Origin: Solwaraspora sp. WMMD792
GTDB lineage: Bacteria > Actinomycetota > Actinomycetes > Mycobacteriales > Micromonosporaceae
Assembly (NCBI RefSeq): GCF_029626105.1
Contig: NZ_JARUBH010000009.1
Span: 434,001-498,000, forward strand
Length of the DNA stretch: 64,000 nucleotides
Direction: 5' to 3'
The notes beneath the pieces were generated by a model, which was not told the origin of the DNA, made no database searches, and was given only the letters and a program-made list of their open reading frames with translations. Below are positions 31,303 to 47,304 of the stretch, in pieces. The number at the start of each line of letters is the position of its first letter. Within the stretch, counting starts at the first letter, position 1. The translations under genes and the position numbers were made by a program.

Positions 31303-31315
31303 AAAGGGCTACTTC

Positions 31316-32152
31316 ATGCTCCGTCACCGACGCACACCGGTCCGCGCCACGGCGCTCGCCGGTGCGGCCGTCCTCGTCGGCGTCCTCGGCCTGGCCGCCC
31401 CGGCGGCCGCGCACATCACGGTCAACCCGTCGCAGGCCACCGTCGGCGACTACGCCCGGCTGGCGTTCCGGGTGCCGAACGAGAGCGACGAACACAGCAC
31501 CGTCGAGGTCGAGGTGGTCCTGCCGGAGGACGCGCCGGTCGCCTCGGTGTCGCTGGCCAGGGTGCCGGGCTGGACCGCCGACGTGCAGGTGGCGCCGGTG
31601 GACCCACCGCTGGAGGTGCACGGGGCGCAGATCACCGAGGCGGTGTCCCGGATCGTGTGGACCGCCGACAGCCCGCAGGACGGGGTGCAGCCGGGTGAGT
31701 TCGTGGAGTTCCCGGTCTCCCTCGGCCCGCTGCCCGAGGCCGAGCAACTGGTCTTCAAGTCGCTGCAGACCTACTCCGACGGCACCGTGGTGCGGTGGAT
31801 CGAGGTTCCGGTGCCCGGTGAGGAGGAGCCGGCCACCCCGGCCAGCGTGCTCACGTTGACCTCGGCTGAGGAGGACAGCCCGGCCGTCGGCGGCGGCGGT
31901 CAGGAACCAGTCGACGACGAGGCGCCGGCCGACGACGCCGCGACCGGCAGCGACGCCGGCGAAAGCGACACCGGCGGCAACGGTGCCGCGCTCGGGGTGG
32001 GGATCGTCGGGCTGCTCGCCGGCCTCGGCGGGTTGGCACTCGGCGGGCTGGCGTTCGCCCGGACCCGCCGCCCGACGCCTGCTCCGGCACCTGTCCCAGC
32101 GGCCGCTACCCGCCCGGAGTCGACGTCGGGTGGCGGCGGATCGGCAGACTGA
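31316..32152 (+). CDS. YcnI-like (DUF1775) copper-binding envelope protein
   Basis: 278 residues from ATG 31316, with AGAAAGGG upstream. The signal peptide ends at AAAHITVNPSQATVGD. The mature N-terminal His followed by this strand is the diagnostic copper site of YcnI. The late conserved SRIVWTADSPQDGVQPGEF matches the DUF1775 core Trp region. An acidic Gly/Asp linker and one C-terminal membrane helix (GVGIVGLLAGLGGLALGG) anchor it. It is cotranscribed with the CopC-CopD gene. The last 47 bases overlap the convergent GT87 gene. Confidence 0.92.
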   Translation: MLRHRRTPVRATALAGAAVLVGVLGLAAPAAAHITVNPSQATVGDYARLAFRVPNESDEHSTVEVEVVLPEDAPVASVSLARVPGWTADVQVAPVDPPLEVHGAQITEAVSRIVWTADSPQDGVQPGEFVEFPVSLGPLPEAEQLVFKSLQTYSDGTVVRWIEVPVPGEEEPATPASVLTLTSAEEDSPAVGGGGQEPVDDEAPADDAATGSDAGESDTGGNGAALGVGIVGLLAGLGGLALGGLAFARTRRPTPAPAPVPAAATRPESTSGGGGSAD

Positions 32153-33398
32153 CCAGCAACACCGCGGCCGCCAGCACGTACAGGTTGCGCAACACGAAGG
32201 TGGCCGGATCGTCGGTCGGCACCTTCGCGTGCCCCCAGTCGATCAGTGACACGACACCGACGACCAGCGCCGCGAAGATGACCGCCGCCAACGCCACCGA
32301 CGCCGCCGGTCCGGCGGCCCGGACTCCGCGCCGGGCCGCCGCCGGCTGCGGCCCGGCGGCGACCAGCGGGCGGTCCGGCAGCGCCGCGTCGAGGAGCACG
32401 ATCAGCGCCGGGACGAACCAGTAGACGTGGTGCGGCCAGGTGATCGGTGCGATCAGCGCGGCCACCAGACCGGTCAGGGTCAGCCCGGCCAGCTCGTCGC
32501 CGGCCCGTACCGCACGGGCCGCGCGCCACAGCCCGTAGCCGGCGGCGACGGTCACCAGCACCAGCCAGACCAGCCGGTCCGGCTCGGCCGGAGCGGCCAG
32601 CCGGGCGAGTAGCCCTTGCAGCGACTGGTTGCCGGTGTAGTCGCTGCGCCCCACCCGGTCGGTGCTCCACAGCTCGGTGAACCAGAACCGCCACGACTCC
32701 GCCGGGGCGACCGCCGCGGCGAGCCCGGTGGCGGCCGCCGCCGCCAGGCAGGACACCAGCGCCGCCCGCCACCGGCGGGTGACCAGCAGGTAGACGATGA
32801 AGATCCCCGGGAACAGCTTGATCGCCGTCGCCAGGCCGATGCCGACGCCGGCCCAGCGGGACCGCTTCGGTACGGCGAACAGCAGGTCGGCCAGGATCAG
32901 CACGACCAGCAGCATGTTGATCTGCCCGAGGAAGATCGTCTCCCGGGTCGGCTCGATCAGCACCACCAGCGGTACCGCCAGACCGGCCAGCCACCAGCGC
33001 GGCAGACCGCGCCGGCGGGCGATCGGGGTGACCAGCCAGACCGTGGTGACCACCACCGCCAGCAGCGTGCCGACGGTGAACACGGCGGCGGCGGTCCCGG
33101 CGCCCACGGCCGCGAACGGGCGCAGCAACAGCGCGGTGAACGGGGGATAGGTGAAGTAGAGCTGGCCCTGCACGATGTCGGGCTGAACGTAGTCGTACAG
33201 CGGGTTGCCGTCGGCCCACCAGCGCATCGCGCTCAGGTAGATCTTCAGGTCGTAGAAGTCGTGCCGGTTGCCGTACCAGATCAGGGCGGCGATCACGGCG
33301 GCGCTGAGCGCGACGACGACCGCGACCCGGCGCGGCGTGCGGGATCTGTCGTCGACGGGACGCGGCGCGGGGCCGTCCGGGAGGGTGTCGGCGGGCAC
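32106..33398 (-). CDS. GT87-family integral membrane mannosyltransferase
   Basis: 430 residues from GTG 33398, with about 10-11 membrane helices. The first periplasmic loop carries DFYDLKIYLSAMRWWADGNP, and a later loop has PTRETIFLGQINMLLV. This is the GT-C layout of polyprenyl-phosphomannose-dependent alpha-mannosyltransferases (the PimE family, DUF2029). It probably mannosylates lipoglycans such as PIMs or lipoarabinomannan on the outer face. In-frame codons upstream of 33398 run antisense through orn and are rejected. Confidence 0.88.
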   Translation of the reverse strand: MPADTLPDGPAPRPVDDRSRTPRRVAVVVALSAAVIAALIWYGNRHDFYDLKIYLSAMRWWADGNPLYDYVQPDIVQGQLYFTYPPFTALLLRPFAAVGAGTAAAVFTVGTLLAVVVTTVWLVTPIARRRGLPRWWLAGLAVPLVVLIEPTRETIFLGQINMLLVVLILADLLFAVPKRSRWAGVGIGLATAIKLFPGIFIVYLLVTRRWRAALVSCLAAAAATGLAAAVAPAESWRFWFTELWSTDRVGRSDYTGNQSLQGLLARLAAPAEPDRLVWLVLVTVAAGYGLWRAARAVRAGDELAGLTLTGLVAALIAPITWPHHVYWFVPALIVLLDAALPDRPLVAAGPQPAAARRGVRAAGPAASVALAAVIFAALVVGVVSLIDWGHAKVPTDDPATFVLRNLYVLAAAVLLVSLPIRRHPTSTPGG

Positions 33399-33470
33399 GC
33401 CCGCGAGCCTAGCGGGGGCCGCCGCCGGTGACCTGGCAGGCTGCTGGACGGTGCCGCGTAGGCTGTCCGC

Positions 33471-34061
33471 GTGGCGGATCTTCTTGTCTGGATCGACTGT
33501 GAGATGACCGGGCTCGACCTCGGCAGGGACGCGTTGATAGAGGTGGCCGCGTTGGTCACCGACTCCGACCTCAACGTGCTCGGTGACGGCGTCGACCTGG
33601 TGATCCACGCCGACGAGGAGGCACTGGCCGGGATGCCGGACGTGGTGCGGGAGATGCACGCCAAGTCCGGGCTGACCGAGGAGGTGCGGCGTTCGGCGGT
33701 CACCCTCGCCGAGGCGCAGGACCGGGTGCTGGAGTACGTGACCAGCTTCGTGCAGGAGCCGAAGACCGCGCCGCTGTGCGGCAACTCGATCGCCACCGAC
33801 CGGGGGTTCATCGCCCGAGATATGCCGCGACTCGACTCCTACCTGCATTACCGCATGATCGACGTTTCGTCGATCAAGGAGTTGTGCCGCCGGTGGTACC
33901 CCCGGGTCTATTTCGGGCAGCCGGCCAAAGGGCTGTCGCACCGGGCGCTGGCGGACATCCGGGAGAGCATCCGGGAGCTGGAGTACTACCGGCGGTCGAT
34001 CTTCGTGCCGTTGCCCGGCCCGGACGTCGACGCGGCCAAGGCGATCGCCGCCGGCCTCTGA
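33471..34061 (+). CDS. orn: Oligoribonuclease
   Basis: 196 residues, usual length. A DEDDh 3'-5' exonuclease that clears short RNA and pGpG in the cytoplasm. Catalytic Asp9 and Glu11 lie in [37 protein letters not shown] and the final [18 protein letters not shown] supply the remaining metal ligands and the His. The GTG start at 33471 is divergent from the GT87 gene. tRNA-His follows on the same strand. Confidence 0.97.
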
Positions 34062-34190
34062 CCGCCGCCGAATGACCGGCCGCTGGATGGCGGCTGGGCC
34101 GGCCCGGCGGAACCCGCTCGACGTGATGCCCGCCGGTAGGGCTATCATTGGTCGGCACCCCACGCGGCAGTCTGCCGGGTGTGGTTCTTG

Positions 34191-34266
34191 GTGGCTGTAG
34201 CTCAGCAGGTAGAGCACCGGGTTGTGGTCCCGGGTGTCGAGGGTTCAAGTCCCTTCAGTCACCCCA
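34191..34266 (+). tRNA. tRNA-His (GTG)
   Basis: GTGGCTG pairs with CAGTCAC. The D arm, an anticodon stem CCGGG/CCCGG with loop TTGTGGT (anticodon GTG), and the T loop TTCAAGT are all present. The base before the acceptor stem (34190) is G and the discriminator is C, the expected G-1:C73 identity pair of histidine tRNA. CCA is encoded (34264-34266). A possible -10 element TATCAT lies at 34143-34148. Confidence 0.97.
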
Positions 34267-34273
34267 TACCGAA

Positions 34274-34307
34274 GCGCCCGGCCAGGGAGATCCTGGCCGG
34301 GCGCTTT
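34274..34307 (+). terminator. Rho-independent terminator after tRNA-His
   Basis: A 13-bp perfect stem (GCGCCCGGCCAGG / CCTGGCCGGGCGC) with loop GAGAT is followed by TTTC. It ends tRNA-His, and on the other strand it may also end the L,D-transpeptidase operon. Confidence 0.9.
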
Positions 34308-34364
34308 CGCTCGGTGCCGGTCGTCGTCCGGGGCGGGCCGGGTGCCCGACCCGGACGGGACGGG

Positions 34365-35681
34365 TCAGCCCTGCGGGTCCGAGCCGGTTGCGGATCCGCC
34401 GGCGGCACCGCCCGGCGTCGACTCGGTGGACTCCGGCTCGGACGTCGCCGGCTCGTACGGCAGAGCGCTGCCTTCGACGAGCTCGTCCCAGCTGAGGTTC
34501 CACACGGTCCAACCGTTGCCGTTGGCGAGTTGGACCTCGGTGCCCTTGACCGTGACCGGGTCACCGACCTTGGTCTGGTTGAACAGCCACTTGGCGTTGT
34601 CCATCGACATGTTGACGCAGCCGTGTGACACGTTGCGTACCCCCTGGTCGGCCACCGACCACGGGGCAGCGTGGATGAACTCGCCGCCCCAGGTCAGCCG
34701 CTGGGCGTACTCGATGTCCGTCCGGTAGCCCTCCTCCGGGCCCAGCTCCTCGTACGTGTCGAAGACGGTCTCCTTCAGCTTCTCCATCACGATCATGGTG
34801 CCGCTGGAGGAGGGCGTCTTCGGCTTGCCGAGACTGACCGGGATCTCCTTGATCGTCTCGCCGTCCTTGGTGACCACCATCGTCTTGCTGGCGTTGTCCA
34901 CCGTCATCACCAGCGCCGCACCGACCTCGGCGTCCACGGTCAGGTCGTTGCGGCCGTACCAGCCGTCGCCCATCGGTAGGCCACCGGTCTGCGCCTTGTA
35001 GAACAGCTGGGTGCCGGCCTGCCAGAACTCGCGTGGCCGGAACTGGACCTCGGTGGGGCTCACCCAGTACCAGATGCCCTCCTGGGCGGGCTCGGTCTCG
35101 ACGCCCAACCGTCGCTGCACGTCGTCGCGGTAGTCCTGCGGGATGTCCCGGCTGAACCGCAGGATCAGTGGCATCGCGACGCCGACCACGTTGCCGTCGC
35201 CCAGGAAGCTGGACACCCGTACCTGGTTGCCCGGCTGGGCCATGGTCCGGAAGTTGTGGCTGGTCACGGTGGTCTCGCCGTCGTCGCCGGTCACCGTCAC
35301 CGTCGCGGTGTACGCGGCGTCGTACTCCAACTGCCCGTTTGGCAGGAAGACGGTGCCGTCGGCATCGACCTCGCCCGGCACCGGGTTGCCGTCGGCGTCG
35401 GTCAACTCCACCGTGGTTTGCGCCGCCTCGGTCGTGGTGAACGTGATCGCCGTCGACGCGGGCACGTCGGTGGCGTCGGCGGCCGGCTCGGTGATCGTCG
35501 CCTGGGCCTGTGGGCTCGGGTCGGCCTCCGTGCCGCCCTGCCAGGTGGGGGCGTCGCCGGCGCCGGTGCAGGCACCGGTGAGGGCGAGCGCGGCGGCGAG
35601 CGCGACGGCCGTGACAACCCGCGGTACGGGCGGTCGCGCCCGCCCGGTGCGCGGCTTTACCTGGAAGCGGCTGACTCGCAT
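34365..35681 (-). CDS. L,D-transpeptidase lipoprotein (first of tandem pair)
   Basis: 438 residues from ATG 35681, with a GAGGGG ribosome site. A lipoprotein signal with lipobox LTGAC (Cys38) is followed by an Ig-like domain (residues about 60-160) and a second beta domain. The YkuD catalytic domain has the SHGCVNMS motif with Cys355. It makes 3-3 (mDAP-mDAP) peptidoglycan cross-links outside the membrane, like mycobacterial LdtMt2. A Gly/Ser/Thr tail closes the chain. The next gene upstream is a paralogue with the same layout, 222 bp away. Confidence 0.93.
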   Translation of the reverse strand: MRVSRFQVKPRTGRARPPVPRVVTAVALAAALALTGACTGAGDAPTWQGGTEADPSPQAQATITEPAADATDVPASTAITFTTTEAAQTTVELTDADGNPVPGEVDADGTVFLPNGQLEYDAAYTATVTVTGDDGETTVTSHNFRTMAQPGNQVRVSSFLGDGNVVGVAMPLILRFSRDIPQDYRDDVQRRLGVETEPAQEGIWYWVSPTEVQFRPREFWQAGTQLFYKAQTGGLPMGDGWYGRNDLTVDAEVGAALVMTVDNASKTMVVTKDGETIKEIPVSLGKPKTPSSSGTMIVMEKLKETVFDTYEELGPEEGYRTDIEYAQRLTWGGEFIHAAPWSVADQGVRNVSHGCVNMSMDNAKWLFNQTKVGDPVTVKGTEVQLANGNGWTVWNLSWDELVEGSALPYEPATSEPESTESTPGGAAGGSATGSDPQG

Positions 35682-35903
35682 GATCCCCTCACGAAGTTCG
35701 GTCCCCGGATCCCATCGTCCATCAAAGACGCAGTGGGGCAACTCCCGGGTTCGTGCCTCAACGTATGCAACATCGACACGGCTGACCGATATTTCCCGGA
35801 TCATCCGGTCCGTTCGGCCAGCCGTGTCTCGTTCATGCGTATTTGGCAGTTATTCAGATGTCATACTGTGCCGATCTGACGCCGACCGGCACCGCATCGA
35901 CCG

Positions 35904-37184
35904 TCACCCGGACGTTGCTGTCGGTACCGGCGTCGGTGCCGTCGGTGTCGGTGAACCAGCCCCTGCCGGCTGCAGATCGGCCGGAACCGGCAACGCACTA
36001 CCTTTGACGAACTCGTCCCAGGTGAGGTTCCAGGCGGTCCAGCCGTTGCCGTCCGCCAGCTCCCGCTCGGTGCCCTTGACCGTGATCGGGTCACCGACCT
36101 TCGTCTGGTTGAACAGCCACTCGGCGTTGGCCATCGACAGGTTGACACAACCGTGTGACACGTTGCGTACCCCCTGGTCGCCGACCGACCACGGGGCGGC
36201 GTGGATGAACTCGCCACCCCAGGTGATCCGCTGGGCGAACGAGATGTCCGTCCGGTAGCCCTCCTCCGGGCCCAACTCGGCGAAAGTGTCGAAAACGGTC
36301 TGTTCCTGCTTGTCCATCACCACCATGGTGCCGCTCGACGACGGCGTACTCGGCTTGCCGAGACTGACCGGCATCTGCTTGACCAGCTTGTCGTTCTTGA
36401 ACATCGACAGCTGCTTGGTGGCGTTGTCGACCTCCACGGTCACCTTGTCGCCGATCTTCGCGGTGGCGCCCCGGTCCATGTCCCCGTACCGGCCGTCACC
36501 GGTCGGATGACCATCCAGCGCGATCCGGGCGGTCACCGTCGTGCCGGCCTGCCAGAAGTCCGGAGCCCGGTAGAACGCCTGGGTACCGTTGGACACCCAG
36601 TACCAGGTGCCCGGCTGTGGCGGGTCGGTCTTGACGAACATCCGCTTCTGTACGCTGGCCCGCTCCTGCTCCGGGATGCCGGGGAAGAACTCGACCACCA
36701 CCGGCATCGCCACCCCGTACGTCCGTCCGTCGAACAGGTAGAGGCCGGTGCCGGTCTGCGACCCGGACTTGCCCATCGTGGTGAACGACGTGGTCTTGGT
36801 CTCCTCCTCCCCGGTGCTGCTGGTCGCGACGACAGTCGCCGTGTACTTCTTCTGATTCTTGAGTGGTTTGTCCGGCACCCAGGCGGTGCCGTCCTCCCGC
36901 ATACTGCCGCTGACCTCGCCGCCACCGTCCTCGACGAGGGTCACCGAGGTGACCTCCCCGCCGCTCACCGTGGTGCCGATCTCCGTGCTGATCGGCAGGT
37001 TCTTCGCGTCCGCCTTCGGCGCGATGGCGAACTCGAACGGCTCCGGCGGGGGTGTCGGACTCGCCGTGGCCACCTGGCCGTTGACGAATCGTGGCGTCTT
37101 GTCCGATCCACACCCTGCCAGTGCCGCCGGTGCGATGACTGCCAGTGTCACCGCGACCGACCAACCCCTCCTGACCTTGTGCAT
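35904..37184 (-). CDS. L,D-transpeptidase lipoprotein (second of tandem pair)
   Basis: 426 residues from ATG 37184, preceded by AAGGAACGGG. The lipobox is LAGC (Cys25). Two Ig-like/beta domains lead to a YkuD domain with the SHGCVNLS motif (Cys346). Long stretches around the active site (GGEFIHAAPWSVGDQGVRNV) are nearly identical to the neighbouring paralogue, showing tandem duplication. An in-frame ATG at 37220 would add 12 residues without a ribosome site. It catalyses 3-3 cross-linking of peptidoglycan. Confidence 0.93.
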   Translation of the reverse strand: MHKVRRGWSVAVTLAVIAPAALAGCGSDKTPRFVNGQVATASPTPPPEPFEFAIAPKADAKNLPISTEIGTTVSGGEVTSVTLVEDGGGEVSGSMREDGTAWVPDKPLKNQKKYTATVVATSSTGEEETKTTSFTTMGKSGSQTGTGLYLFDGRTYGVAMPVVVEFFPGIPEQERASVQKRMFVKTDPPQPGTWYWVSNGTQAFYRAPDFWQAGTTVTARIALDGHPTGDGRYGDMDRGATAKIGDKVTVEVDNATKQLSMFKNDKLVKQMPVSLGKPSTPSSSGTMVVMDKQEQTVFDTFAELGPEEGYRTDISFAQRITWGGEFIHAAPWSVGDQGVRNVSHGCVNLSMANAEWLFNQTKVGDPITVKGTERELADGNGWTAWNLTWDEFVKGSALPVPADLQPAGAGSPTPTAPTPVPTATSG

Positions 37185-37370
37185 GCCAGTCCCCGTTCCT
37201 TGTTCCGTCCCTGCCGACATCGTGCATCACCCGCCATGCCCTTCGTGCCTGATCCGGAAGGGTGCCAGATCCGCGCACATGGGCAGGTCCGCCGGACAGA
37301 CGGCTCGTTGCCGGCAACTGGTTGGAAGCCGGACGGCCGGACATGCTAGGGTTGCCCGCGTTGTCAGCGA

Positions 37371-37446
37371 GCGCCGCTAGCTCAACTGGCAGAGCAGCGG
37401 ACTCTTAATCCGCGGGTTGTAGGTTCGAGTCCTACGCGGCGTACCA
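37371..37446 (+). tRNA. tRNA-Lys (CTT)
   Basis: GCGCCGC pairs with GCGGCGT. The D arm is GCTC/GAGC, the anticodon loop is ACTCTTAAT (anticodon CTT), the T loop is TTCGAGT, and CCA is encoded at 37444-37446. A TAGGGT -10-like element at 37347-37352 follows TTGGAA at 37322-37327. A degenerate copy of its 3' half is found at 40883, marking an integration target. Confidence 0.97.
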
Positions 37447-37452
37447 GACACC

Positions 37453-37494
37453 AAGGCCCCGAACAGGCGGTTTCCGCCCGGTCGGGGCCTTTTG
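37453..37494 (+). terminator. Rho-independent terminator after tRNA-Lys
   Basis: Stem AAGGCCCCGA ... TCGGGGCCTT, with an internal smaller hairpin (GGCGG/CCGCC), is followed by TTTTG. A diverged copy lies at 40929-40965. Confidence 0.88.
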
Positions 37495-37722
37495 CCGTAC
37501 GCCGTACGGCCGGCTGGGTGCTCGCCGGGCTGGCGGACTCTCGGCGGCAGCCCGGCGAGCCAGCCACCCCGGTGTCGTACGTCGGTTGCGTGTCTGATGT
37601 GCAGGCTTGGCGGTACGAGCGCGGCGGCGCGCGGACAACGCTGGGAGGATCTAGGGCCATGGTCGGCGTTCGGAAACCCCTGTGTCGACCCGTTCCGGCT
37701 CGAGGTGTGCGATTATCGCACC

Positions 37723-38823
37723 ATGGCTGGGGAACAGCAGGACTGGCACCGCATCGGCGAGCAGGTCCGGCAGGCGCGTCTGTCGGTCGGCATATCGCAG
37801 CAGGACCTTGCCGATCGCGTGGGGCTAGATCGAACCATGCTGGCCAAGGTTGAGGCTGGTAGCAGGCGCCTCGACGCGGTGGAGTTGGCACGACTGTCCC
37901 GTGCGCTCGAGGTGTCGATGGAGTATCTGATCGAGCCGCAGCCAGCGGTGCTGTCCCGACGGTCTGCGGTACTGACGGAAGAGACGGACACCGAGGCGGC
38001 GCGGTCTTCTGAGCGCTTGGAGATCGCCCTGGTCGGCTGGCTGCGCGATGTGCAGCAGCTGGTAGACATCGGCACTCTCCAGACGGTTCCGCTACTTCGT
38101 TACCCGGGTACGGTGACATCCGAGACTGATGCGAGGCAAGCAGCGCACTGGTTGCGGCAGCAACTTCATCTTGGCGATGAACCGGTGGGTAGCATCACGG
38201 AGATCTGTGAGCGTGCAGGGCAGTGGGTCCTTGTAGCTGATCTGCCAGGCGATGGCGCGTCCCTCATCCAGGGGGAGGTGGCTGTTGCGGTTGTGAGCGC
38301 ACAAGGTGATCCTGGCCGTCGACGAGCTACCGCCGCACACGAGCTTGGACATTTGGTTATTGGGGACGAATACTCCAGTGATCTGGGAGTCAGCACGTCT
38401 CGCGCGGAGCGCGAAGGGGTGATCGACGCATTCGCTGCTGAGTTGCTGTTACCGCTCAACGCCATGGCCGGATCCCCGAACGATGGGCGCGTGAGCCGGG
38501 ACCTGCTGATTAATTACGCCGCTCGGTACCGCACCTCCTGGGTATTGGCATTACGTCAGGCTGAGCAGGCCGGGGTAATTGATTCCGCGACCCGTCGGGC
38601 TTGGACCTTCCCGCGGCCCACTCGGGCAGAGTTCATGGAGGCTCTAGGCTGGGTGCCTCAGCCCGATCTTGCCTCGGTGCGCGTGTCACCGGGCTATGCG
38701 CATGCGGTGATCGAGGCGTGGCGGGCCAGTCGAATCACTCGGGCCAGGGCGGTCGAGTTGATGTATGGCCAGATCACTGATGCGGACCTGCCTGATGAGG
38801 ATGACCTGGAGACCGCTCCGTGA
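37723..38823 (+). CDS. XRE-family regulator fused to ImmA/IrrE metallopeptidase
   Basis: 366 residues from ATG 37723. The N-terminal helix-turn-helix (IGEQVRQARLSVGISQQDLA, then LDRTMLAKVEAGSRRLDAVE) is followed by a linker and an ImmA/IrrE zinc-peptidase domain with HELGH at residues 206-210 and a downstream Glu region (EGVIDAFAAELLLP). These proteins derepress promoters by proteolysis, often in mobile elements or toxin-antitoxin-like units. The partner gene overlaps by 4 bp (GTGA) and is PIN-like. Codon use is less GC-biased than in surrounding genes, consistent with transfer. Confidence 0.9.
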   Translation: MAGEQQDWHRIGEQVRQARLSVGISQQDLADRVGLDRTMLAKVEAGSRRLDAVELARLSRALEVSMEYLIEPQPAVLSRRSAVLTEETDTEAARSSERLEIALVGWLRDVQQLVDIGTLQTVPLLRYPGTVTSETDARQAAHWLRQQLHLGDEPVGSITEICERAGQWVLVADLPGDGASLIQGEVAVAVVSAQGDPGRRRATAAHELGHLVIGDEYSSDLGVSTSRAEREGVIDAFAAELLLPLNAMAGSPNDGRVSRDLLINYAARYRTSWVLALRQAEQAGVIDSATRRAWTFPRPTRAEFMEALGWVPQPDLASVRVSPGYAHAVIEAWRASRITRARAVELMYGQITDADLPDEDDLETAP

Positions 38824-39368
38824 GTCTGCCGATGCCGCCGGGTTCGGTCCTTGTGCTCGATGCGATGCTCTTGCATCACTTTGCCCTTGCTGACCGGTTG
38901 GAGGTCCTGCGCGATCTGCTTATGGATGCTGACTGCTGGACAACGCAGGTGGTCATGGAAGAGTTGCGGTCGGGAGCCGTAAACCGACCAGAGCTGATGG
39001 CTGCATGTGAGGTGGACTGGCTGAAGCGAGCTCAGCTGGACACTCTTGATGAGATTCGATGCTTCACCGTATGGGTCAAAAGACTTGGTGCTGAGGAGCG
39101 CAATCTCGGTGAGGCATCCGTTCTCGCTGCTGCTGAGCTGCGGAGAGGTATCGCAATCACGGATGATCGGCAGGCCACCAAGGTCGCCCGTGCCTACCGG
39201 GCAGAAGTGCATGGCACGATCTGGCTTCTCGCGGCAGCTTGTCGGACCGGCAAACAGACTGAGGTGGGTGCGGGCAACCTCATCGACGCCTTGAGAGCGA
39301 CGAGTGCTCGTCTACCCTGCTCGGGTGCAGACTTCTCGGCCTACGCCCGTAGGCATCACCTGCTATAA
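38820..39368 (+). CDS. PIN-like domain protein, partner of the XRE-ImmA gene
   Basis: 182 residues. Acidic residues fall in a PIN-type order: Asp in SVLVLDAMLLHHF, Glu in VVMEELRSGA, Glu in NLGEASVLAAAELRRG, and Asp in IAITDDRQATKVA. This matches the nuclease site of PIN-domain ribonucleases. The 4-bp overlap with the regulator implies a coupled two-gene unit, probably toxin-antitoxin-like with the ImmA protein as regulator. RNA cleavage is inferred and has not been shown. Confidence 0.75.
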   Translation: MSLPMPPGSVLVLDAMLLHHFALADRLEVLRDLLMDADCWTTQVVMEELRSGAVNRPELMAACEVDWLKRAQLDTLDEIRCFTVWVKRLGAEERNLGEASVLAAAELRRGIAITDDRQATKVARAYRAEVHGTIWLLAAACRTGKQTEVGAGNLIDALRATSARLPCSGADFSAYARRHHLL

Positions 39369-39403
39369 GACGTCTACGCGAGACCGGAGTCGGAGTCTTT
39401 CCA

Positions 39404-39449
39404 GCGCCTGCCGGGGAGAGCGCAGGTGTCGCTCTCGCCCGGCAGGCGC
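39404..39449. terminator. Long hairpin between convergent genes
   Basis: GCGCCTGCCGGGGAGAGCG and its complement form a 19-bp stem with one bulge and loop CAGGTGT. It lies between the PIN-like gene and the convergent nuclease gene. There is no T-run, but its place fits a bidirectional terminator. Confidence 0.65.
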
Positions 39450-39508
39450 CTGCGGTTGCCTCGCGCCCGATCCTGCCTCGAACCAGGCTGTCGGGTTCGA
39501 GTCGAGTC

Positions 39509-40624
39509 TCAGCGGTTCTTGTCGCCCCCGTCACCCATGAATGCCCTGACCGCAACCCGTATCGCTTCCGCATGCAGATAGATGTCGTCAAGCGAGCTGA
39601 TCAGATGGCGGGTCTCTGTCTTGTCGGCATCGAAGGTTCCGATATACTTCCGGGCCTTTCCGTTGAAGTGCAGTCGCGCTATGGGCTTGCGGTTGTTGTC
39701 GTCGAGAATGATCGCGAAGTATGACTTCGCATCGCGGCCTACGACGCGTTGGGGCTTGACGTCGCTACACGCGATCGCCTTGACGATCTGATACCCGGTC
39801 AATTCCTCGAGTGTGGTGTCGACCTCCGTGTCGCGTGCGACATCGCCGAGTGCAACCTCCTCGCTTTCGAGTGCCTCGGGATGCCCCCCAGTAGCCTGCT
39901 TGGGAGGGTTCGCGTGGAGTGCGCCTTTCAGTCGTTCGTTCACCTGATCCCTGATGAACTGGGAGGCGGCCTTGGCGACAATTGGCCGGAACTGCTCCCG
40001 TCTTTTTTGGGTCAGCGAGCCCTCGTACACCTTGGCTGCGAAGAATCTGATCCACTCGTCTTCGGGCTCCTCGAACTGCTTTGCCATCGAGCGCTTGAAC
40101 TGTCCGAGGTACTTCAGTTCCTCCGCTGCACTGATGATGGAATCGAGATCGAAAACTTCTTTTGTAAGCTTCCGCAACTCCGGCAGGAGGGTGTCGTCGA
40201 TGTCCTCCAAGTCGAATATGAGGAAGGGCTTGGTGTCCATCTTGTTGGGTGCGTCAAGGTCGGTGTAGAAGTGGTAGACCTGACCGTTGGTGAGGATGGC
40301 GATACGGGCGTTCGTGACGGAGAAGTACCGGTAGAGCTGCGATGCGTGTTCGATCTTCAGGGGGTCGCGTGGTTGCTTGCATTCGATGAGAATCTGCACC
40401 TCGCCGGCGTGCATGATCGCGTAGTCGACCTTCTCGCCCTTCTTGGTTCCGACGTCAGCGGTGAACTCCGGTATGACCTCCAGCGGGTCGAATACGTCGT
40501 AGCCAAGAATCATCGAAATGAACGGCATGACGAAAGCGTTCTTGGCGGCTTCTTCCGTCTGAATCGCATCCCGTTGATTGCTGACCTTTGTGGCGAGGGC
40601 GGCGACCCGTTCATCGAATTCCAT
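39509..40624 (-). CDS. Orphan HsdR-N-type (type I restriction) nuclease-like protein
   Basis: 371 residues. The N-terminal 150 residues match the HsdR N-terminal PD-(D/E)XK nuclease: FVMPFISMILGYDVFDPLEV, then KGEKVDYAIMHAGEVQILIE with ECKQPRDPL supplying the D...E-x-K site. The C-terminal half has no helicase motifs, and there is no methylase or specificity subunit beside it. Proteins of this type are common orphan genes in prophages and defence islands. Low GC relative to neighbours, and its place inside a tRNA-bounded island, suggest acquisition. The start is ATG 40624. Confidence 0.8.
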   Translation of the reverse strand: MEFDERVAALATKVSNQRDAIQTEEAAKNAFVMPFISMILGYDVFDPLEVIPEFTADVGTKKGEKVDYAIMHAGEVQILIECKQPRDPLKIEHASQLYRYFSVTNARIAILTNGQVYHFYTDLDAPNKMDTKPFLIFDLEDIDDTLLPELRKLTKEVFDLDSIISAAEELKYLGQFKRSMAKQFEEPEDEWIRFFAAKVYEGSLTQKRREQFRPIVAKAASQFIRDQVNERLKGALHANPPKQATGGHPEALESEEVALGDVARDTEVDTTLEELTGYQIVKAIACSDVKPQRVVGRDAKSYFAIILDDNNRKPIARLHFNGKARKYIGTFDADKTETRHLISSLDDIYLHAEAIRVAVRAFMGDGGDKNR

Positions 40625-40882
40625 GAAGCAGACTCCTTGTCGTCGGGTGGATGGAAGGGCGCTAAGGATTACTGGAAGTTCTTTGCTTGTTATTGGACGT
40701 CCCTGGCGTCGACCGGATTTTACCGGCCGGTTGCGGGGTGCGATGCCCCGAAAAGGGGCCGGGCGATCCCACTTTCCGTCAGTTCGGTGCGTCGGAAAGG
40801 GTAGGTTTGCAAGGCTCCTGGTTATGGCTAAGATGCGCTACCCACATGAGCCCTTCACGAGTGACCACAGGCCAAGCCCTCG

Positions 40883-40967
40883 ATCCGCAGGGCGTAGGTT
40901 CACGTCCTACACGGGCGTACCTGACGACAAGGCCCCGACCAGGCTCTTTCGCCCGGCCGGGGCTTTA
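40883..40967 (+). repeat. Degenerate copy of the tRNA-Lys 3' end and its terminator (att-like)
   Basis: ATCCGCAGGGCGTAGGTTCA continues as a T-arm-like CGTCCTAC, an acceptor-like ACGGGCGTACC, then a diverged terminator (AAGGCCCCGACC...GGCCGGGGCTTT, 40929-40965). It aligns along its length with 37409-37494, the anticodon-stem 3' side to terminator of tRNA-Lys, with scattered mismatches. It marks the far end of the island and, read leftward, may serve as the terminator of valS. Confidence 0.75.
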
Positions 40968-41001
40968 TTCGAACTCCTACTACTGGTACGACTGCTCGCT
41001 G

Positions 41002-43557
41002 CTACACCGTCACCTGGGTGCTCAGGCCCGGCTCGCCAGCTTCCTCGGTGTCGAGCGAGGCGACCCGGCCGGCGGCACGCAGATCCTCCGCGACGTCGCC
41101 GAGTGCGACCAGCATCGCCGGCTCGGCACGGACCAGGACCTTCGACACGTTCGCCCGCATAGACAGCTTCGCTTCCGACTTGGCCTTGCGGATCGCGGCG
41201 ATGACCTGGCTGGCGACGGTCAGCGCCGTCGAGTCGGCACCATCGGCCGCCGCCCGCAGCTCGTCACCCGTCGGCCAGGCAGCCCGGTGCACCGTGCCGG
41301 TGTGCCACCAGGACCACACCTCCTCGGCGACGAAGGGTAGGAACGGCGCGAACAGTCGCAGCAGCGTGGCCAGAGCGATGGTCAGCGCGGCGCGGGCGGA
41401 CTCGGCTGGGGCGGAGCCGCGTTCGCCGTACCCCCGGCTCTTGGCCAGCTCAAGGTAGTCGTCGCAGAACCGCCAGAAGAACTGCTCGACGCCTTCCAGG
41501 GCGCGGGCGTAGTCGTAGCCGTCCAGCGCGGCGGTGGCGTCCTCGACCACGCTGGCCAGCTCCGCCAGCATCGCCCGGTCCAGCGCTTCGGTCACGGTGG
41601 CCGACTCGGCGGGAGCGCCCAGGCCGAGCACGAACCGGCTGGCGTTGAGGATCTTCATCGCCAGCCGGCGACCGACCTTCATCTGCCCGGTGTCGAACGC
41701 GGTGTCGGTGCCCGGGCGGCCGTTGACCGCCCAGTAGCGGGCCGCGTCGGATCCGTACTCCTCCAGCAGCGCCAGCGGAGTGACGACGTTGCCCTTGGAT
41801 TTCGACATCTTCTTGCGGTCCGGGTCGAGGACCCAGCCGGAGATCGCCGCATGCGACCACGGCAGGCTGTCATGCTCCAGATGCGACCGTACGACGCTGG
41901 AAAACAGCCAGGTCCGGATGATCTCGTGCGCTTGGGGCCGCAGGTCCATCGGGAACACCCGCAGGAACAGGTCGTCGTCGGTGCCCCACTTGCCGGCGAT
42001 CTGCGGCGTCAACGAGGACGTGGCCCAGGTGTCCATGACGTCCGGGTCGCCGACGAAGCCACCGGGGGTTCCCCGCTGCCAGGCCTGGTAATCCGGCGGA
42101 GTGTCCACGCTCGGGTCCACCGGCAACGCCGTCTCGTCGGGCAGGATCGGCTGGTCGTGGACCGGCTCGCCATGCTCGTCGAGGGGGTACCAGACCGGGA
42201 TCGGCACCCCGAAGAACCGCTGCCGGCTGACCAGCCAGTCCCCGGTCAGGCCGCCGACCCAGCCTTCGTAGCGGGCCCGCATGTACTCCGGCTGCCAGGC
42301 CAGCTCCCGGCCCCGGTCCAACAGGGCCTCCCGCAGATCGGTTTCCCGGCCCCCGTTGCGCAGGTACCACTGCCGGGTCGTGACGATCTCCAGTGGCTTG
42401 TCGCCGCGCTCGTAGAACTTCACCGGATGCGTGATCTTCTCTGGCTCACCGACCAGCTCGCCGGACGCGCGCAGCAGCGCCACCACCCGTTCCCGGGCGG
42501 TGTGCATGGTGGCCCCGACCAGTTCGGCGTAGGCCGCGCGTGCCTGCGGGTCGTCCAGGCCGGGCGGCGGGTCGGCCAGGACCCGCCCGTCCCGGCCGAC
42601 GATCGGCCGGGTGGCCAGCTGCAGCTCGCGCCACCACAGCACGTCGGTCAGGTCGCCGAAGGTGCAGATCATGGCGATGCCGGTGCCCTTGTCGGGGGCC
42701 GCGAGCCGGTGCGCGGTGACTGGGACCTCGATCCCGAACAGCGGGGTACGGACGGTGGCGCCCACCAGGTCGCGGTACCGCTCGTCATCCGGATGCGCCA
42801 CCAGTGCCACGCATGCCGGCAGCAACTCCGGCCGGGTGGTCATGATGTGCACCGGGCTGCCGTCCGGCCGGTGGAACGCCACCCGATGCTGCGCCCCGGG
42901 CCGCTCCCGGTCCTCCAGCTCCGCCTGCGCGACCGCGGTCCGGTACGTGACGTCCCAGAGCGTCGGCGCCTCGGACAGGTACGCCTCACCGCGCGTGACG
43001 TTGCGCAGAAACGCCCGCTGCGACACCCGCCGCGCGTCGGCGTCGATGGTCTGATAGGTCAGCTGCCAGTCGACCGACAGCCCCAACCGCCGCCACAGCT
43101 GCTCGAACACCTGCTCGTCGGCGACCGTCAACCGCTCACACAACTCGATGAAGTTGCGCCGGGACACCTGAATCTCCGACTTGCCTGGCTGTTCCGGCGG
43201 GGTGAAATCCGGGTCGTACGGCAGTGAGGGGTCGCAGCGCACCCCGAAGAAGTTCTGCACCCGGCGCTCGGTGGGCAGGCCGTTGTCGTCCCAGCCCATC
43301 GGGTAGAACACCGCCTTGCCGCGCATCCGCTGATACCGGGCGATGACGTCGGTGTGGGTGTACGAGAACACGTGACCGACGTGCAGCGACCCGCTGACCG
43401 TGGGCGGCGGTGTGTCGATGGAGTACACCCCGGCTCGGTCGGCGGACCGGTCGAACCGGTATACGCCCTGCTCCTCCCAGCGACGCGCCCACTTGTCTTC
43501 CAGCCCGTTCAACGACGGTGCCGACGGAACGGCGAAGCCCGCAGAGGTGTCAGCCAT
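41002..43557 (-). CDS. valS: Valine--tRNA ligase
   Basis: 851 residues. Class I synthetase with the HIGH-type motif HVGH (residues 59-62) in GSLHVGHVFSY and KMSKS at residues 583-587. The editing domain lies between (VHIMTTRPELLPACVALVAH). The anticodon-binding domain is near the C-terminus, but the long C-terminal coiled coil of most bacterial ValRS is missing; it ends at LSTQVTV. It charges tRNA-Val. No T-box leader is visible in the short upstream gap. It may be one of two ValRS types in such genomes (inference). Confidence 0.97.
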   Translation of the reverse strand: MADTSAGFAVPSAPSLNGLEDKWARRWEEQGVYRFDRSADRAGVYSIDTPPPTVSGSLHVGHVFSYTHTDVIARYQRMRGKAVFYPMGWDDNGLPTERRVQNFFGVRCDPSLPYDPDFTPPEQPGKSEIQVSRRNFIELCERLTVADEQVFEQLWRRLGLSVDWQLTYQTIDADARRVSQRAFLRNVTRGEAYLSEAPTLWDVTYRTAVAQAELEDRERPGAQHRVAFHRPDGSPVHIMTTRPELLPACVALVAHPDDERYRDLVGATVRTPLFGIEVPVTAHRLAAPDKGTGIAMICTFGDLTDVLWWRELQLATRPIVGRDGRVLADPPPGLDDPQARAAYAELVGATMHTARERVVALLRASGELVGEPEKITHPVKFYERGDKPLEIVTTRQWYLRNGGRETDLREALLDRGRELAWQPEYMRARYEGWVGGLTGDWLVSRQRFFGVPIPVWYPLDEHGEPVHDQPILPDETALPVDPSVDTPPDYQAWQRGTPGGFVGDPDVMDTWATSSLTPQIAGKWGTDDDLFLRVFPMDLRPQAHEIIRTWLFSSVVRSHLEHDSLPWSHAAISGWVLDPDRKKMSKSKGNVVTPLALLEEYGSDAARYWAVNGRPGTDTAFDTGQMKVGRRLAMKILNASRFVLGLGAPAESATVTEALDRAMLAELASVVEDATAALDGYDYARALEGVEQFFWRFCDDYLELAKSRGYGERGSAPAESARAALTIALATLLRLFAPFLPFVAEEVWSWWHTGTVHRAAWPTGDELRAAADGADSTALTVASQVIAAIRKAKSEAKLSMRANVSKVLVRAEPAMLVALGDVAEDLRAAGRVASLDTEEAGEPGLSTQVTV

Positions 43558-43671
43558 AGCTGGTCATGCTACGGTCGGCCGCCGCCCGCCCGGCAAGGAA
43601 TTTCCTGCTCCCGGTCGTGGCGGCAGCATCTCAGCGACGTACGTGGAACCCGGGCGGGCGGGCAGTGGAAT

Positions 43672-46600
43672 TCAACTGCTCGGCCAACCATCCAGTTGAC
43701 CGAGCTGCTCGGACAGTTCCGTAGCCACCTGCTCCGGTTCGGCCAGGCAACGCCATGCGGGCACCCGGCGGACGGTGCCGTGGTGGGCGGCGACGTCGAG
43801 GCGGGCGAGGACCTTGCGCAGGGCGCGACCGGACGGATCGCCGGCCGGGTCGTCGACGTAGACGGCGATCTCCCGACCAGCCTGCCGGATGACGAGATCG
43901 GCGGTCTGCCCGGCCACGGCGACGTCCCGTTGTACGGCGACCCCGGCCTCGCGCAGGGCACGGTGCAGCTGATCGGCGGGCCCCGGGGCGGCGTCCGGCA
44001 GCGCTGCGGTCGACCTGTGGCCGAGGGCCACGGCGGTGAGCAGGCCCCGTTGGCCCGACCACCACGACCGGTCGCCGACGACGACGAGCTGGGACCGGGC
44101 CCGGGTGATGGCGACGTTCCACAGGTTCGTCTGGTGGGCGAGCCAGTCCCGGGTGCGGTCACCGATGCCGTGGGCACCGACCGGTGAGACGACCATGATG
44201 TCGCGTTCGCTGCCCTGGAACCGGTGGATGGTCGCGCAGAGCAGGTTCTCGGACAGGTCGGCGGCATAAAGCGCGGACTTCAGGCCGCGCTGCTGCGCGG
44301 CGAGCGGTGTGACTACTCCGATGGATGCCTCCGGGAAGGCCGCGCGAAGCTCGGCCACTTCGGTCACCACCGCCGCGATCTCGACGTCGTTGCGTCCGGA
44401 CCCGGTCGGTCCGTAGCTGTACGTGCCCGGCACGTCGCGCCACCGTACGGCCGGTTCGGCGGGCGCGGTCAGTCGGGCCGGATCGGTCAACACGGTGAGC
44501 CGGCCCTGGTACACCTCCCGGTTCGGGGCGTCGACGATGTCCGGGTGGCAGCGGTAGTGCTCGTCGAGCAGATAGGCCGTGCCGGCCGCTGCGGCGAACG
44601 CGTCGTACGCCGAATGGCGTGCGTAGCGCAGCCGTCGGGTGTTCAACCATTCGGTGCCCAGCCCGGCCTTGACCTGTTCGGCGAGATCGTCGGCGTCGGT
44701 AAGCTCGACGACGGGCGGCAACTGCCGGGGGTCACCGATGATCAGTGCCCGTTTGGCGCGGTACAGCATGGGCAGGATCGCCGGTACGGTGCACTGCGCG
44801 GCCTCGTCGATCACGACGAGGTCGTACATCGCCGGTTCCCGCCGCATCCATCGCACGGAGAGCGCCGTCACGGCCCAGCCCGGCAGCACCCGGAGCAGCT
44901 CCGGAAAGTAGGCCCAGCTGTCCGGCTTGGCCTTGGCCATCTCGTCGGCCCGGTTCTGCAGCAGCCGGGCCCCGGACGTCACCCGATGAGCGATCTGGGC
45001 GCGCAGCAGTTCGATGCTGCGCCTGGGCCGCTCGACGCCGATGAGTTCGGTCAACCGCTGCCAGGACGTCTCGGCAGTGGGCAGCGCGTCGGCCTGGCGC
45101 CGACAGTCCCGCCACCGCAGCTCGATGACGGCACGTTCACCGAGGGTCCGGATGGCATCCGGGTCGTCGGCGCCGTGCCGACGTAGCCGCCAGCGGTACC
45201 ACCAGCCGAGCCACCGGCTGTTCAGGGCACGGTCAGTGAGTTGGTGCAGCCGCGCGAGCGCCGCGTCGTCGTCCGGCAGCTCGACCGCTGCGGCATCGCG
45301 GCCGGCCCGGTGCTCGTGGCCGGCCCGGTGTTCGCGGCGCAGCCCCGGTCGGCGCTCGGCCGCGAGGTCGGCCAGGTCGCGTTCGAGCAGCCGCTGATCG
45401 TCCAGGCTCTGCCGCAGGCCGTTGATTTCGTCGGCGATCAGGTGGAGTTCGTACAGCGGTGTCCGATCGTCGGGCGCCAGGTGGCTTTCGGCCGGCGGGT
45501 ACGCGGCGAACAGGTCGGCGATGTGCTTCGGCTCCTGCAGCCGATGCTCCTTGTTCCCGGTGCGCAGCACCAGCCCGGGACCGACCAGCTCGCCGACCCG
45601 GCCGAACACCGCGTCCACCGCCTGGTTGCTGGTGGAGCCGATCAGCACGCTCTGGCCGGCGGCGGTGGCGGTGGCGAGCAGCGCGGTGACCAGTTGGCTC
45701 TTACCCGTCCCCGGTGGACCCTGCGCGACGGTCAACGGCTGCGACATCGCGGCCCGGATGATCTCCTCCTGCGCCTCGTTGGCCGGAGCCAGTGCGACGG
45801 TCGCGATCGGTGCCGGAGCCTCCTCGCCCGGGCCCGCCGCGAGGGTTGCCAACGCCGTCCGGTCGATGAGCCGTGGATTCTTGATCATGCTCTGCAGGTC
45901 GACGACGAGTTGCTGCTGCGGTGAGGCCGTGGCGTCGACGGAGTAGAGCAGCGCGGCGTTCTGCACCCGGTCGAGTGGCCCGGGTCGCGGTGGGCCGACC
46001 AGCGCAGTCGGGTCGAGGTCCGCCACCGGAGTCATACCGAACGTCTTCATCAGCAGGTCGACGGTGGCGGTGAGGGCCGCCGGGTCACCGGGTACGAAGA
46101 CCTGCTCGACCCGTTGCAGCAGTTCGTCGGACTCCACGTCGGACAACTGCAGCAGGTCGAGCAGCGCCGGGCCGGGCCGTGGCGGGAAGCAGGCGTGCAC
46201 GACATTGTCGGTGCCCACCGTGACGTCGCAGATCAGTAGCGGCGTCAACCGTACCGGCTGCTGCCTGGCGGGTCGGACCGCGACGACCGGATAGCCGTAC
46301 TGCAACTCCTTGCCGTCGTCGCGGGCCCGGGCGGCCAGCGCGGATGCCCGGCCGGTCAACCGGACCGGCGAGGCCGCCGTGAACACCGCCTCGGCACCCG
46401 CCGGTGCCGGAACGTACGTGCTGACCGCCTGCGGGTCGATGAAGGACCGCAGGGCGGCCGAGCGCTCCATGCAGTTGACGTAGTAGGTGATCAGGCGGCG
46501 CCACTGGTCAGCGTCGAACGGGGCGTCGTCGGCGGGGCTGGTCGGGCCGGTGTCAGGTCGCGCCTGGGCGGCCGCCGAGTCCGGCGCGGTGACCAGCCGG

Positions 46601-47304
46601 ATGGGTTCGGTCACCCCCTCGCTCGATTCGACCGGCGAGTGCTGCCGACGTCGGGCCATCTCGGTCATCGCGTAACGGGCGAGGTCGTTGGTGGTGACCC
46701 AGCCGTCGGCGGATCCGCCGGCCGCGCCGCGCAACCCCTCGAGCAGCACCTCGGTGAACACCGACGGCCGATCGGGCCCTTGCGCCTTTGCCGCCTTCAT
46801 GTGCGTGCTGGAGGTCAGGACGAAGGTGCCTCGTTCGCGCTTGCCCCGGCGAGGTTCCTCCCGTACGCCGCCCCGGAACCTGTGCCGTGCGGTGAAGGCT
46901 CCGGAGAAGCAACAGTCGAGCAGGACGACCTTCTGACTGGCCTTGGTGTTGTTCAGCAGATGCCGCAGGGTGCCGTCGACGTCGAAGGCGGTGGCGTGCA
47001 GCTGTCCGGCGTGGGAATCCGTGGCGGTGAGAAACAGCGACTCCCGGTCCTCGTGCAGCACGCCGTGTCCGGAGTAGTACAGCAGGGCCAGGTCGTCTCT
47101 GCCACACCGGCCGTAGAATTCCTCGACGACCTGGCGTAGGTGTGCGACCGGCAGGTCCAGTTGGGCGTCGACGGTGTCGAAGCCGCCGCTGCCGTCGAGT
47201 AGCGTCTTGAGCTGGGTGACGTCCTGGCGTACCGAGGGCAGTGCCGGGAGTCGCCGATCGGCGTGGTAGCTGGCTGTGCCGAGCAGCAGCGCGTGCCGGC
47301 CCAT
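43672..47304 (-). CDS. Caspase-like protease / UPF1-like helicase / PD-(D/E)XK-like fusion
   Basis: 1210 residues. Residues 1-240 form a C14 caspase domain: LALLYYSGHGVL (His80) and VVLLDCCFSGAF (Cys132) are the catalytic dyad. An unassigned alpha/beta linker runs to about 500. A superfamily 1 helicase follows: Walker A GPPGTGKS 529-536, DEAA 833-836, GDPRQLPPV 857-865, IHRFQGSERD and NVAITRAR 1063-1070. A charged insertion splits the helicase at about 640-700. The last 100 residues resemble a DUF559/Vsr-type nuclease fold (ADLVIR, then IAVYVDDP), with Tyr replacing the usual Glu. It overlaps the EACC1-like gene in TGATG. It is a likely NTP-driven, protease-armed conflict system. Confidence 0.85.
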   Translation of the reverse strand: MGRHALLLGTASYHADRRLPALPSVRQDVTQLKTLLDGSGGFDTVDAQLDLPVAHLRQVVEEFYGRCGRDDLALLYYSGHGVLHEDRESLFLTATDSHAGQLHATAFDVDGTLRHLLNNTKASQKVVLLDCCFSGAFTARHRFRGGVREEPRRGKRERGTFVLTSSTHMKAAKAQGPDRPSVFTEVLLEGLRGAAGGSADGWVTTNDLARYAMTEMARRRQHSPVESSEGVTEPIRLVTAPDSAAAQARPDTGPTSPADDAPFDADQWRRLITYYVNCMERSAALRSFIDPQAVSTYVPAPAGAEAVFTAASPVRLTGRASALAARARDDGKELQYGYPVVAVRPARQQPVRLTPLLICDVTVGTDNVVHACFPPRPGPALLDLLQLSDVESDELLQRVEQVFVPGDPAALTATVDLLMKTFGMTPVADLDPTALVGPPRPGPLDRVQNAALLYSVDATASPQQQLVVDLQSMIKNPRLIDRTALATLAAGPGEEAPAPIATVALAPANEAQEEIIRAAMSQPLTVAQGPPGTGKSQLVTALLATATAAGQSVLIGSTSNQAVDAVFGRVGELVGPGLVLRTGNKEHRLQEPKHIADLFAAYPPAESHLAPDDRTPLYELHLIADEINGLRQSLDDQRLLERDLADLAAERRPGLRREHRAGHEHRAGRDAAAVELPDDDAALARLHQLTDRALNSRWLGWWYRWRLRRHGADDPDAIRTLGERAVIELRWRDCRRQADALPTAETSWQRLTELIGVERPRRSIELLRAQIAHRVTSGARLLQNRADEMAKAKPDSWAYFPELLRVLPGWAVTALSVRWMRREPAMYDLVVIDEAAQCTVPAILPMLYRAKRALIIGDPRQLPPVVELTDADDLAEQVKAGLGTEWLNTRRLRYARHSAYDAFAAAAGTAYLLDEHYRCHPDIVDAPNREVYQGRLTVLTDPARLTAPAEPAVRWRDVPGTYSYGPTGSGRNDVEIAAVVTEVAELRAAFPEASIGVVTPLAAQQRGLKSALYAADLSENLLCATIHRFQGSERDIMVVSPVGAHGIGDRTRDWLAHQTNLWNVAITRARSQLVVVGDRSWWSGQRGLLTAVALGHRSTAALPDAAPGPADQLHRALREAGVAVQRDVAVAGQTADLVIRQAGREIAVYVDDPAGDPSGRALRKVLARLDVAAHHGTVRRVPAWRCLAEPEQVATELSEQLGQLDGWPSS

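Follow-up and report, generated by a model that had tools for sequence, protein, structure and literature searches.

We analysed 64,000 nucleotides of the 7.4-Mb genome of Solwaraspora sp. WMMD792 (contig NZ_JARUBH010000009.1, positions 434,001 to 498,000; we call this whole stretch the window), in which a small gene island separates an intact tRNA-Lys(CTT) gene (37371..37446, + strand; ARAGORN) from a decayed copy of that gene's 3' half, an interval of about 3.4–3.5 kb. We conclude, with a probability of roughly 0.85, that the island is a remnant of site-specific integration at tRNA-Lys(CTT). Its cargo consists of a gene for an XRE regulator fused to an ImmA-like protease, a PIN nuclease gene and a stand-alone nuclease gene of the HsdR-N type. 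The initial annotation had pictured an element that integrated in the tRNA and later lost its integrase. The first part of that proposal is well supported as the work of a tyrosine recombinase: the half-copy has the expected orientation, the boundary lies near the anticodon loop, relatives in the family contain many sibling half-copies, several of these have integrases or integrase relics nearby, and the XRE-ImmA/PIN pair stands between two half-copies in Micromonospora phytophila. The recombination event itself is one that we infer, as is the loss of the integrase; no trace of a tyrosine integrase was found.

The intact gene carries the proximal attachment (att) copy, which extends from tRNA position 32, in the anticodon loop, to about +160 (37402..37530, +) and comprises the 3' half of the tRNA and its terminator; we took its left end from relatives. 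The terminator hairpin (37453..37492, +) has a fold z score of -3.5. The distal att copy (40877..40967, +) repeats this tract as a decayed 3' half and terminator, of which 40883–40966 aligns with tRNA-Lys position 38 to +121 at 81% identity over 84 bp (BLAST E 2.2e-14), so that the diverged half-copy 3.5 kb downstream that had been proposed is confirmed. Nor is the alignment a matter of chance: its local score is 86, whereas the tRNA region scored no more than 27 against any of 200 dinucleotide-shuffled versions of window 37511–41000. The hairpin of the distal copy still folds (z -4.3). This copy has the same orientation as the tRNA and retains the 3' half only; the 5' half is absent, with no aligned homology upstream, and an att site therefore fits better than a duplicated tRNA. 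The arrangement is the signature of Islander-type islands, in which an intact tDNA is followed downstream by a 3' fragment that has the same orientation. In the congener G002, which has the same island, the distal copy is 88% identical to that of the window over 102 bp and aligns with the tRNA from about position 30 to +144; the repeat thus probably starts at the anticodon loop and extends beyond the terminator. Alignments begin at position 38 for the window copy, at about 30 for the G002 copy and at 25–32 in relatives, and because the window alignment starts only at position 38, we read the crossover point from the relatives.

Half-copies with this boundary recur in the family Micromonosporaceae. 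We searched 300 family genomes for exact matches to 31 bases beginning at position 32, a pattern that is biased towards well-preserved copies, and counted by eye from the match table 115 genomes in which the tRNA-Lys 3'-half pattern occurs at least twice. Inspection of 99 matches (one from M. phytophila) gave 71 intact tRNAs, 27 half-copies in 21 genomes and one diverged copy. The 27 half-copies have a mean identity of 8.9 in the 31 bases before position 32, and 17 have no matching base directly before it: homology ends at position 32 or a few bases earlier. When the whole tRNA is aligned, homology begins at 32 in G007, in G009 and in two copies of G028, and at 25–28 in G014 and in two copies of G026. 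These boundaries match the anticodon-loop subsite that the available text of PMC4383910 gives for tDNA islands. Integrases accompany some of the copies: G080 has a 477-amino-acid integrase frame about 164 bases after a half-copy; G308, G280 and G256 each have a fragment no more than about 90 bases away from tRNA-Lys or a half-copy; in G014 a fragment is some 1.6 kb from a half-copy; and the 53-kb interval of G009 contains an integrase.

The strongest evidence for integration is the XRE-ImmA/PIN pair of M. phytophila (locus L251). There, half-copies at 1026 and 4762 bracket an open reading frame (ORF) that looks NUDIX-like by eye, an XRE-ImmA gene (87% amino-acid identity) and a PIN gene (91%); the pair matches window 37655–39369 at 86.5% DNA identity over 1715 bp. 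The unit has no detectable tyrosine integrase, but beyond the second half-copy, in the neighbouring unit, lies an integrase relic with a frameshift. G276 has XRE-ImmA and PIN genes (84% each) immediately after a half-copy that is 9.65 kb away from its intact tRNA-Lys. Relatives of the HsdR-N gene, whose wide context we examined in six of the 20 carriers outside the genus, lie about 4–5 kb from tRNA-Lys(CTT) in G077 and G303, and one adjoins tRNA-Ser in G007.

Within the genus we compared seven genomes, the window genome (G000) and six congeners (G001–G006). To the left of tRNA-Lys and on to about +160, all seven are alike (85–96% identity to the window); then they diverge. One of the six congeners, G002, has the island, complete with all three genes and the half-copy, and is 93% identical to the window from +162 through valS, the gene beyond the island. 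The other five (G001, G003, G004, G005 and G006) have other DNA at this position, and none shows a second tRNA-Lys copy in the 32–52 kb downstream of tRNA-Lys (best scores 27–34, versus 86 and 94 in the two carriers): the initial annotation had named island-free relatives that keep a second copy as contrary evidence, and there are none among these five. A GTGCTCGGGAGCCGTTGGACC-like stretch, with variants, follows the intact tRNA-Lys in the same five congeners and distal half-copies at loci L041, L042, L049, L168 and L251, often at about +155 to +177.

These observations suggest the following course of events. A tyrosine recombinase would have made its crossover in the anticodon loop of tRNA-Lys; the incoming element would have brought a new tRNA 3' half, by which the tRNA was kept intact; and the old 3' half with its terminator would have been displaced by 3.4 kb and would then have decayed (attR). 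The segment is probably fixed, given the divergence between its att copies and the fact that no integrase was seen.

Several findings weigh against integration. Neither the window island (best tblastn E 0.11) nor that of G002 contains a tyrosine integrase or a relic of one, serine recombinases not having been searched for; in the window the search used six integrases (tblastn E up to 10), 36 integrases (E 1e-4) and a home-made hidden Markov model of 30. The expected boundary lies six bases outside the window alignment, which begins at position 38, and the pattern search tests the 5' side only and is blind to half-copies that begin after position 32. No empty site was seen in the genus: the initial annotation had looked to relatives in which tRNA-Lys is followed directly by the valS terminator, an arrangement that none of the seven genomes has. 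In M. phytophila the unit includes a NUDIX-like gene but lacks HsdR-N, and is therefore not the same element as the window island; and the HsdR-N match in G303 contains a stop codon. Lastly, no tRNA-Lys copy was found near the pair in 38 of 39 genome-contig PIN loci, or in 16 of the 17 family genomes that have it besides the two carriers (the two sets overlap, and some loci stop at contig ends), from which it follows that there are other routes by which the pair moves.

The gene at the right border, outside the island, encodes an alternative valyl-tRNA synthetase (41002..43557, -; NF000540 alt_ValS, 1471.7 bits); a standard ValS is also encoded elsewhere in the window genome. We considered alternative valS as the ancestral right neighbour of tRNA-Lys and set this aside. 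The gene lies 3.6–27 kb downstream of tRNA-Lys in six of the seven genus genomes, is inverted in G006 and is elsewhere in G005; in four genomes of other genera (G009, G014, G016 and G026) it is at least 225 kb away. It is thus probably not an ancestral neighbour, judging from these positions, and since it has moved or been inverted among genomes, the right flank itself lies in a changeable tract.

How the island came to be shared by G000 and G002 bears on a first alternative, to which we assign somewhat less than an even chance: that integration took place in another lineage, and that the block of island, attR and valS entered G000 or G002 by homologous recombination. At fourfold degenerate sites the two genomes diverge by 0.13 in XRE-ImmA, 0.07 in PIN and 0.13 in valS, as against 0.16–0.32 (median 0.29) in 15 predicted genes upstream; because the three are less diverged than the upstream genes, exchange of part of the island–valS tract between species is likely, though not proven. 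Moreover, the left flanks of G004 and G005 are closer to that of G000 (about 96% identity, versus 85.5% for the island-bearing G002), yet both genomes are without the island. The divergence of HsdR-N, however, is 0.21, within the core range, and beyond valS six of seven predicted genes stand at 0.18–0.38, the seventh being a small doubtful ORF at 0.04. There are also few fourfold sites (PIN has 107), a rule based on G+C at third codon positions served to pick the ORFs outside the island, some of which are perhaps wrong, and codon bias may differ in low-GC genes.

An unlikely alternative is that the island never had an integrase of its own and was a cassette moved in trans, inserted by the integrase of another element at the same tRNA-Lys site, in the manner of CIME-like (cis-mobilizable) or tycheposon-like cargo. 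We scanned 21 att-bounded units of relatives (tblastn with 36 integrases, E 1e-4), drawn from among the matches listed and mostly with a spacing of 20 kb or less, such that small units are over-represented. In seven a tyrosine-integrase trace is present (weak in G126, E 1e-5) and in the other 14 none was found, serine recombinases again lying outside the search; the 14 include the XRE-PIN unit of M. phytophila, in whose neighbouring unit the integrase relic lies, and units as small as 1.2 kb occur (G302). Given that 14 of 21 comparable units among these matches also have no tyrosine integrase, a loss from the window island can only be presumed. Against movement in trans stand the frameshifted and truncated integrases beside other copies: integrase decay is evidently common, and absence fits loss equally well. 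The last alternative, that tRNA-Lys was duplicated in tandem, that the duplicate decayed into the present copy and that the intervening genes came in separately, we consider very improbable: at least two intact tRNA-Lys(CTT) genes, 0.1 kb to tens of kb apart, do occur in 23 of the 45 inspected genomes with an intact copy (most of which were chosen because the pattern matched at least twice), but this copy has no 5' half and nothing that aligns upstream, other half-copies end close to the same base, and another genus has the XRE-ImmA/PIN pair between half-copies. Tandem duplication was set aside on the first of these grounds.

Site-specific integration at tRNA-Lys places the island among arrangements known in kind, and it is ordinary in that respect. 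A cis-mobilizable element (CIME) is an att-bounded segment without an integrase. On sequence alone, the window island would resemble a CIME, with att sites on both sides and no recombination genes (only tyrosine integrases were searched for), although its att sites have diverged to 81%. The tycheposons of Prochlorococcus are small cargo units between partial tRNAs, as is the window island; Prochlorococcus, however, belongs to another phylum, and the likeness is one of layout. The Islander-class tDNA islands of the anticodon-centred site A, as set out in the available part of PMC4383910, share with the window an intact tRNA with a 3' fragment in the same orientation, a size range (2–200 kb) that includes 3.4 kb, and a probable anticodon-loop site; in contrast, the window island has a decayed distal fragment and no tyrosine integrase found inside, and for want of an integrase the Islander filter would reject it. 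The available part of PMC3218068 describes actinomycete integrative and conjugative elements (AICEs) that reside in tRNA genes, among them a tandem of two in a Frankia tRNA-Lys gene. An actinobacterial tRNA-Lys as integration site and tandem elements are thus common ground with AICEs as presented there; unlike them, the window island has no recognised int, rep or tra gene. Genes for integration, replication and transfer, by which an AICE or other integrative and conjugative element is recognised, were absent from the three main interval genes, the smaller ORFs lying outside the family-library scan.

As the initial annotation had it, the interval contains an XRE-ImmA/PIN pair and an orphan nuclease, and its G+C content is lower (0.61, versus 0.63–0.78 at 30000–37500 and 0.67–0.74 at 41000–47000 in 500-base windows of the flanks). 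The first gene (37723..38823, +) encodes an XRE helix-turn-helix (HTH) domain fused to an ImmA/IrrE-like Zn protease (Pfam HTH_3 1.6e-12, Peptidase_M78 8e-11), in which HELGH at residue 206 is invariant in 30 aligned sequences. The start of the second gene (38820..39368, +), for a PIN-domain, VapC-like nuclease, overlaps it by 4 bp. The Pfam PIN match is below cut-off, and the structural model (predicted local distance difference test score, pLDDT, of 94) has a predicted PIN/VapC-like fold: the best Foldseek E value is 3.2e-4, and against VapC4 (5h4g) we obtained E 1.3e-3 and template-modelling scores of 0.57/0.72. Residues D14, E48, E98 and D116 are invariant in 31 sequences, and several relatives of this gene carry Micromonospora names. 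The third gene (39509..40624, -) encodes a stand-alone HsdR-N type nuclease (HSDR_N 2.2e-10, over cut-off) with an ECK motif at residue 81 and relatives in 18 phage and 46 plasmid records; it is probably a DNA nuclease separate from XRE-ImmA/PIN. The three proteins also match the profiles PADLOC RmrA (6e-25), PADLOC PDC-S70 (1.6e-11) and phrog_4225 'endonuclease' (8.5e-121), respectively, labels that are of candidate or annotation level.

The island had also been called degenerate, a description that holds for the distal att copy, the sole part visibly decayed, and fails for the cargo. The ratio of nonsynonymous to synonymous divergence between G000 and G002 is 0.11 for XRE-ImmA, 0.20 for PIN and 0.08 for HsdR-N, values that put the cargo genes under purifying selection; they are intact and still appear to be functional. 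Directly 5' of the XRE start codon lies a perfect 15-bp palindrome, GTGCGATTATCGCAC (37707..37721, +). Thirteen of the 14 XRE genes that we read, window and G002 included, have the full 15-mer and the remaining one has its 13-base core, which is also present in 24 of 39 wider genome-contig loci of the pair; from this conservation, the palindrome is likely to be the operator of the XRE-ImmA/PIN operon. The XRE-ImmA protein would probably repress its own operon there, and its Zn-protease part would be expected to lift repression under stress and release the PIN nuclease, whether as a toxin-antitoxin system or in phage defence. In the available text of PMC2701414, Xre–Zn protease fusions beside PIN are proposed as three-component Xre-COG2856-PIN toxin-antitoxin systems. 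The window pair has the features of such a system, as far as that text gives them, with no evident difference: an Xre HTH fused to a HEXXH Zn protease in one operon with PIN, and a PIN fold with its acidic residues. All cargo functions are predicted ones.

The island suggests that integration can leave useful genes behind once the means of integration is gone, and a single tRNA gene would be the point at which defence-like modules enter the genomes of several genera in a family of natural-product makers. Any search for islands that requires an integrase would miss the window island together with 14 of the 21 comparable units of relatives among the matches listed. Small units that use tRNA-Lys across the family without a detectable integrase are, to us, a more interesting lead than one island of a known kind. 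A bolder generalisation, which we hold to be quite improbable, is that tRNA-Lys(CTT) in Micromonosporaceae is a landing pad for small integrase-free cassettes, which form stacked arrays of anticodon-loop half-sites and are moved in trans by a few resident integrases; the window island would then be a single such cassette, old and fixed. When plasmid and phage collections were searched with the 3' half of the tRNA, no matching attP appeared, only matches of 45–48 bases inside the tRNA part. A literature search on tRNA-Lys islands in Micromonospora and Micromonosporaceae found little, which does not prove their absence from print.

Further features of tRNA-Lys and its surroundings may be recorded. 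In several family genomes, intact tRNA-Lys(CTT) genes number two to four, with distances from 0.1 kb to tens of kb between them (L154–L155, L185, L187, L192 and others). In G003, G009 and G026 (L037, L039 and L048), tRNA-Lys is followed by a common block of similar ORFs that by eye are kinase-like, glycosyltransferase-like and thymidylate-synthase-like. Upstream of tRNA-Lys in the window are genes for two paralogous secreted proteins, L,D-transpeptidase-like by eye (34365–35804 and 35904–37220, both -), which are conserved in the genus. Beyond valS, one protein (43672–47304, -) combines a caspase domain (Peptidase_C14), an AAA_11/AAA_12 helicase and a below-cut-off match to the MTES_1575 nuclease; it occurs in seven of the 61 genomes searched, its own included, and looks like the product of a defence gene.

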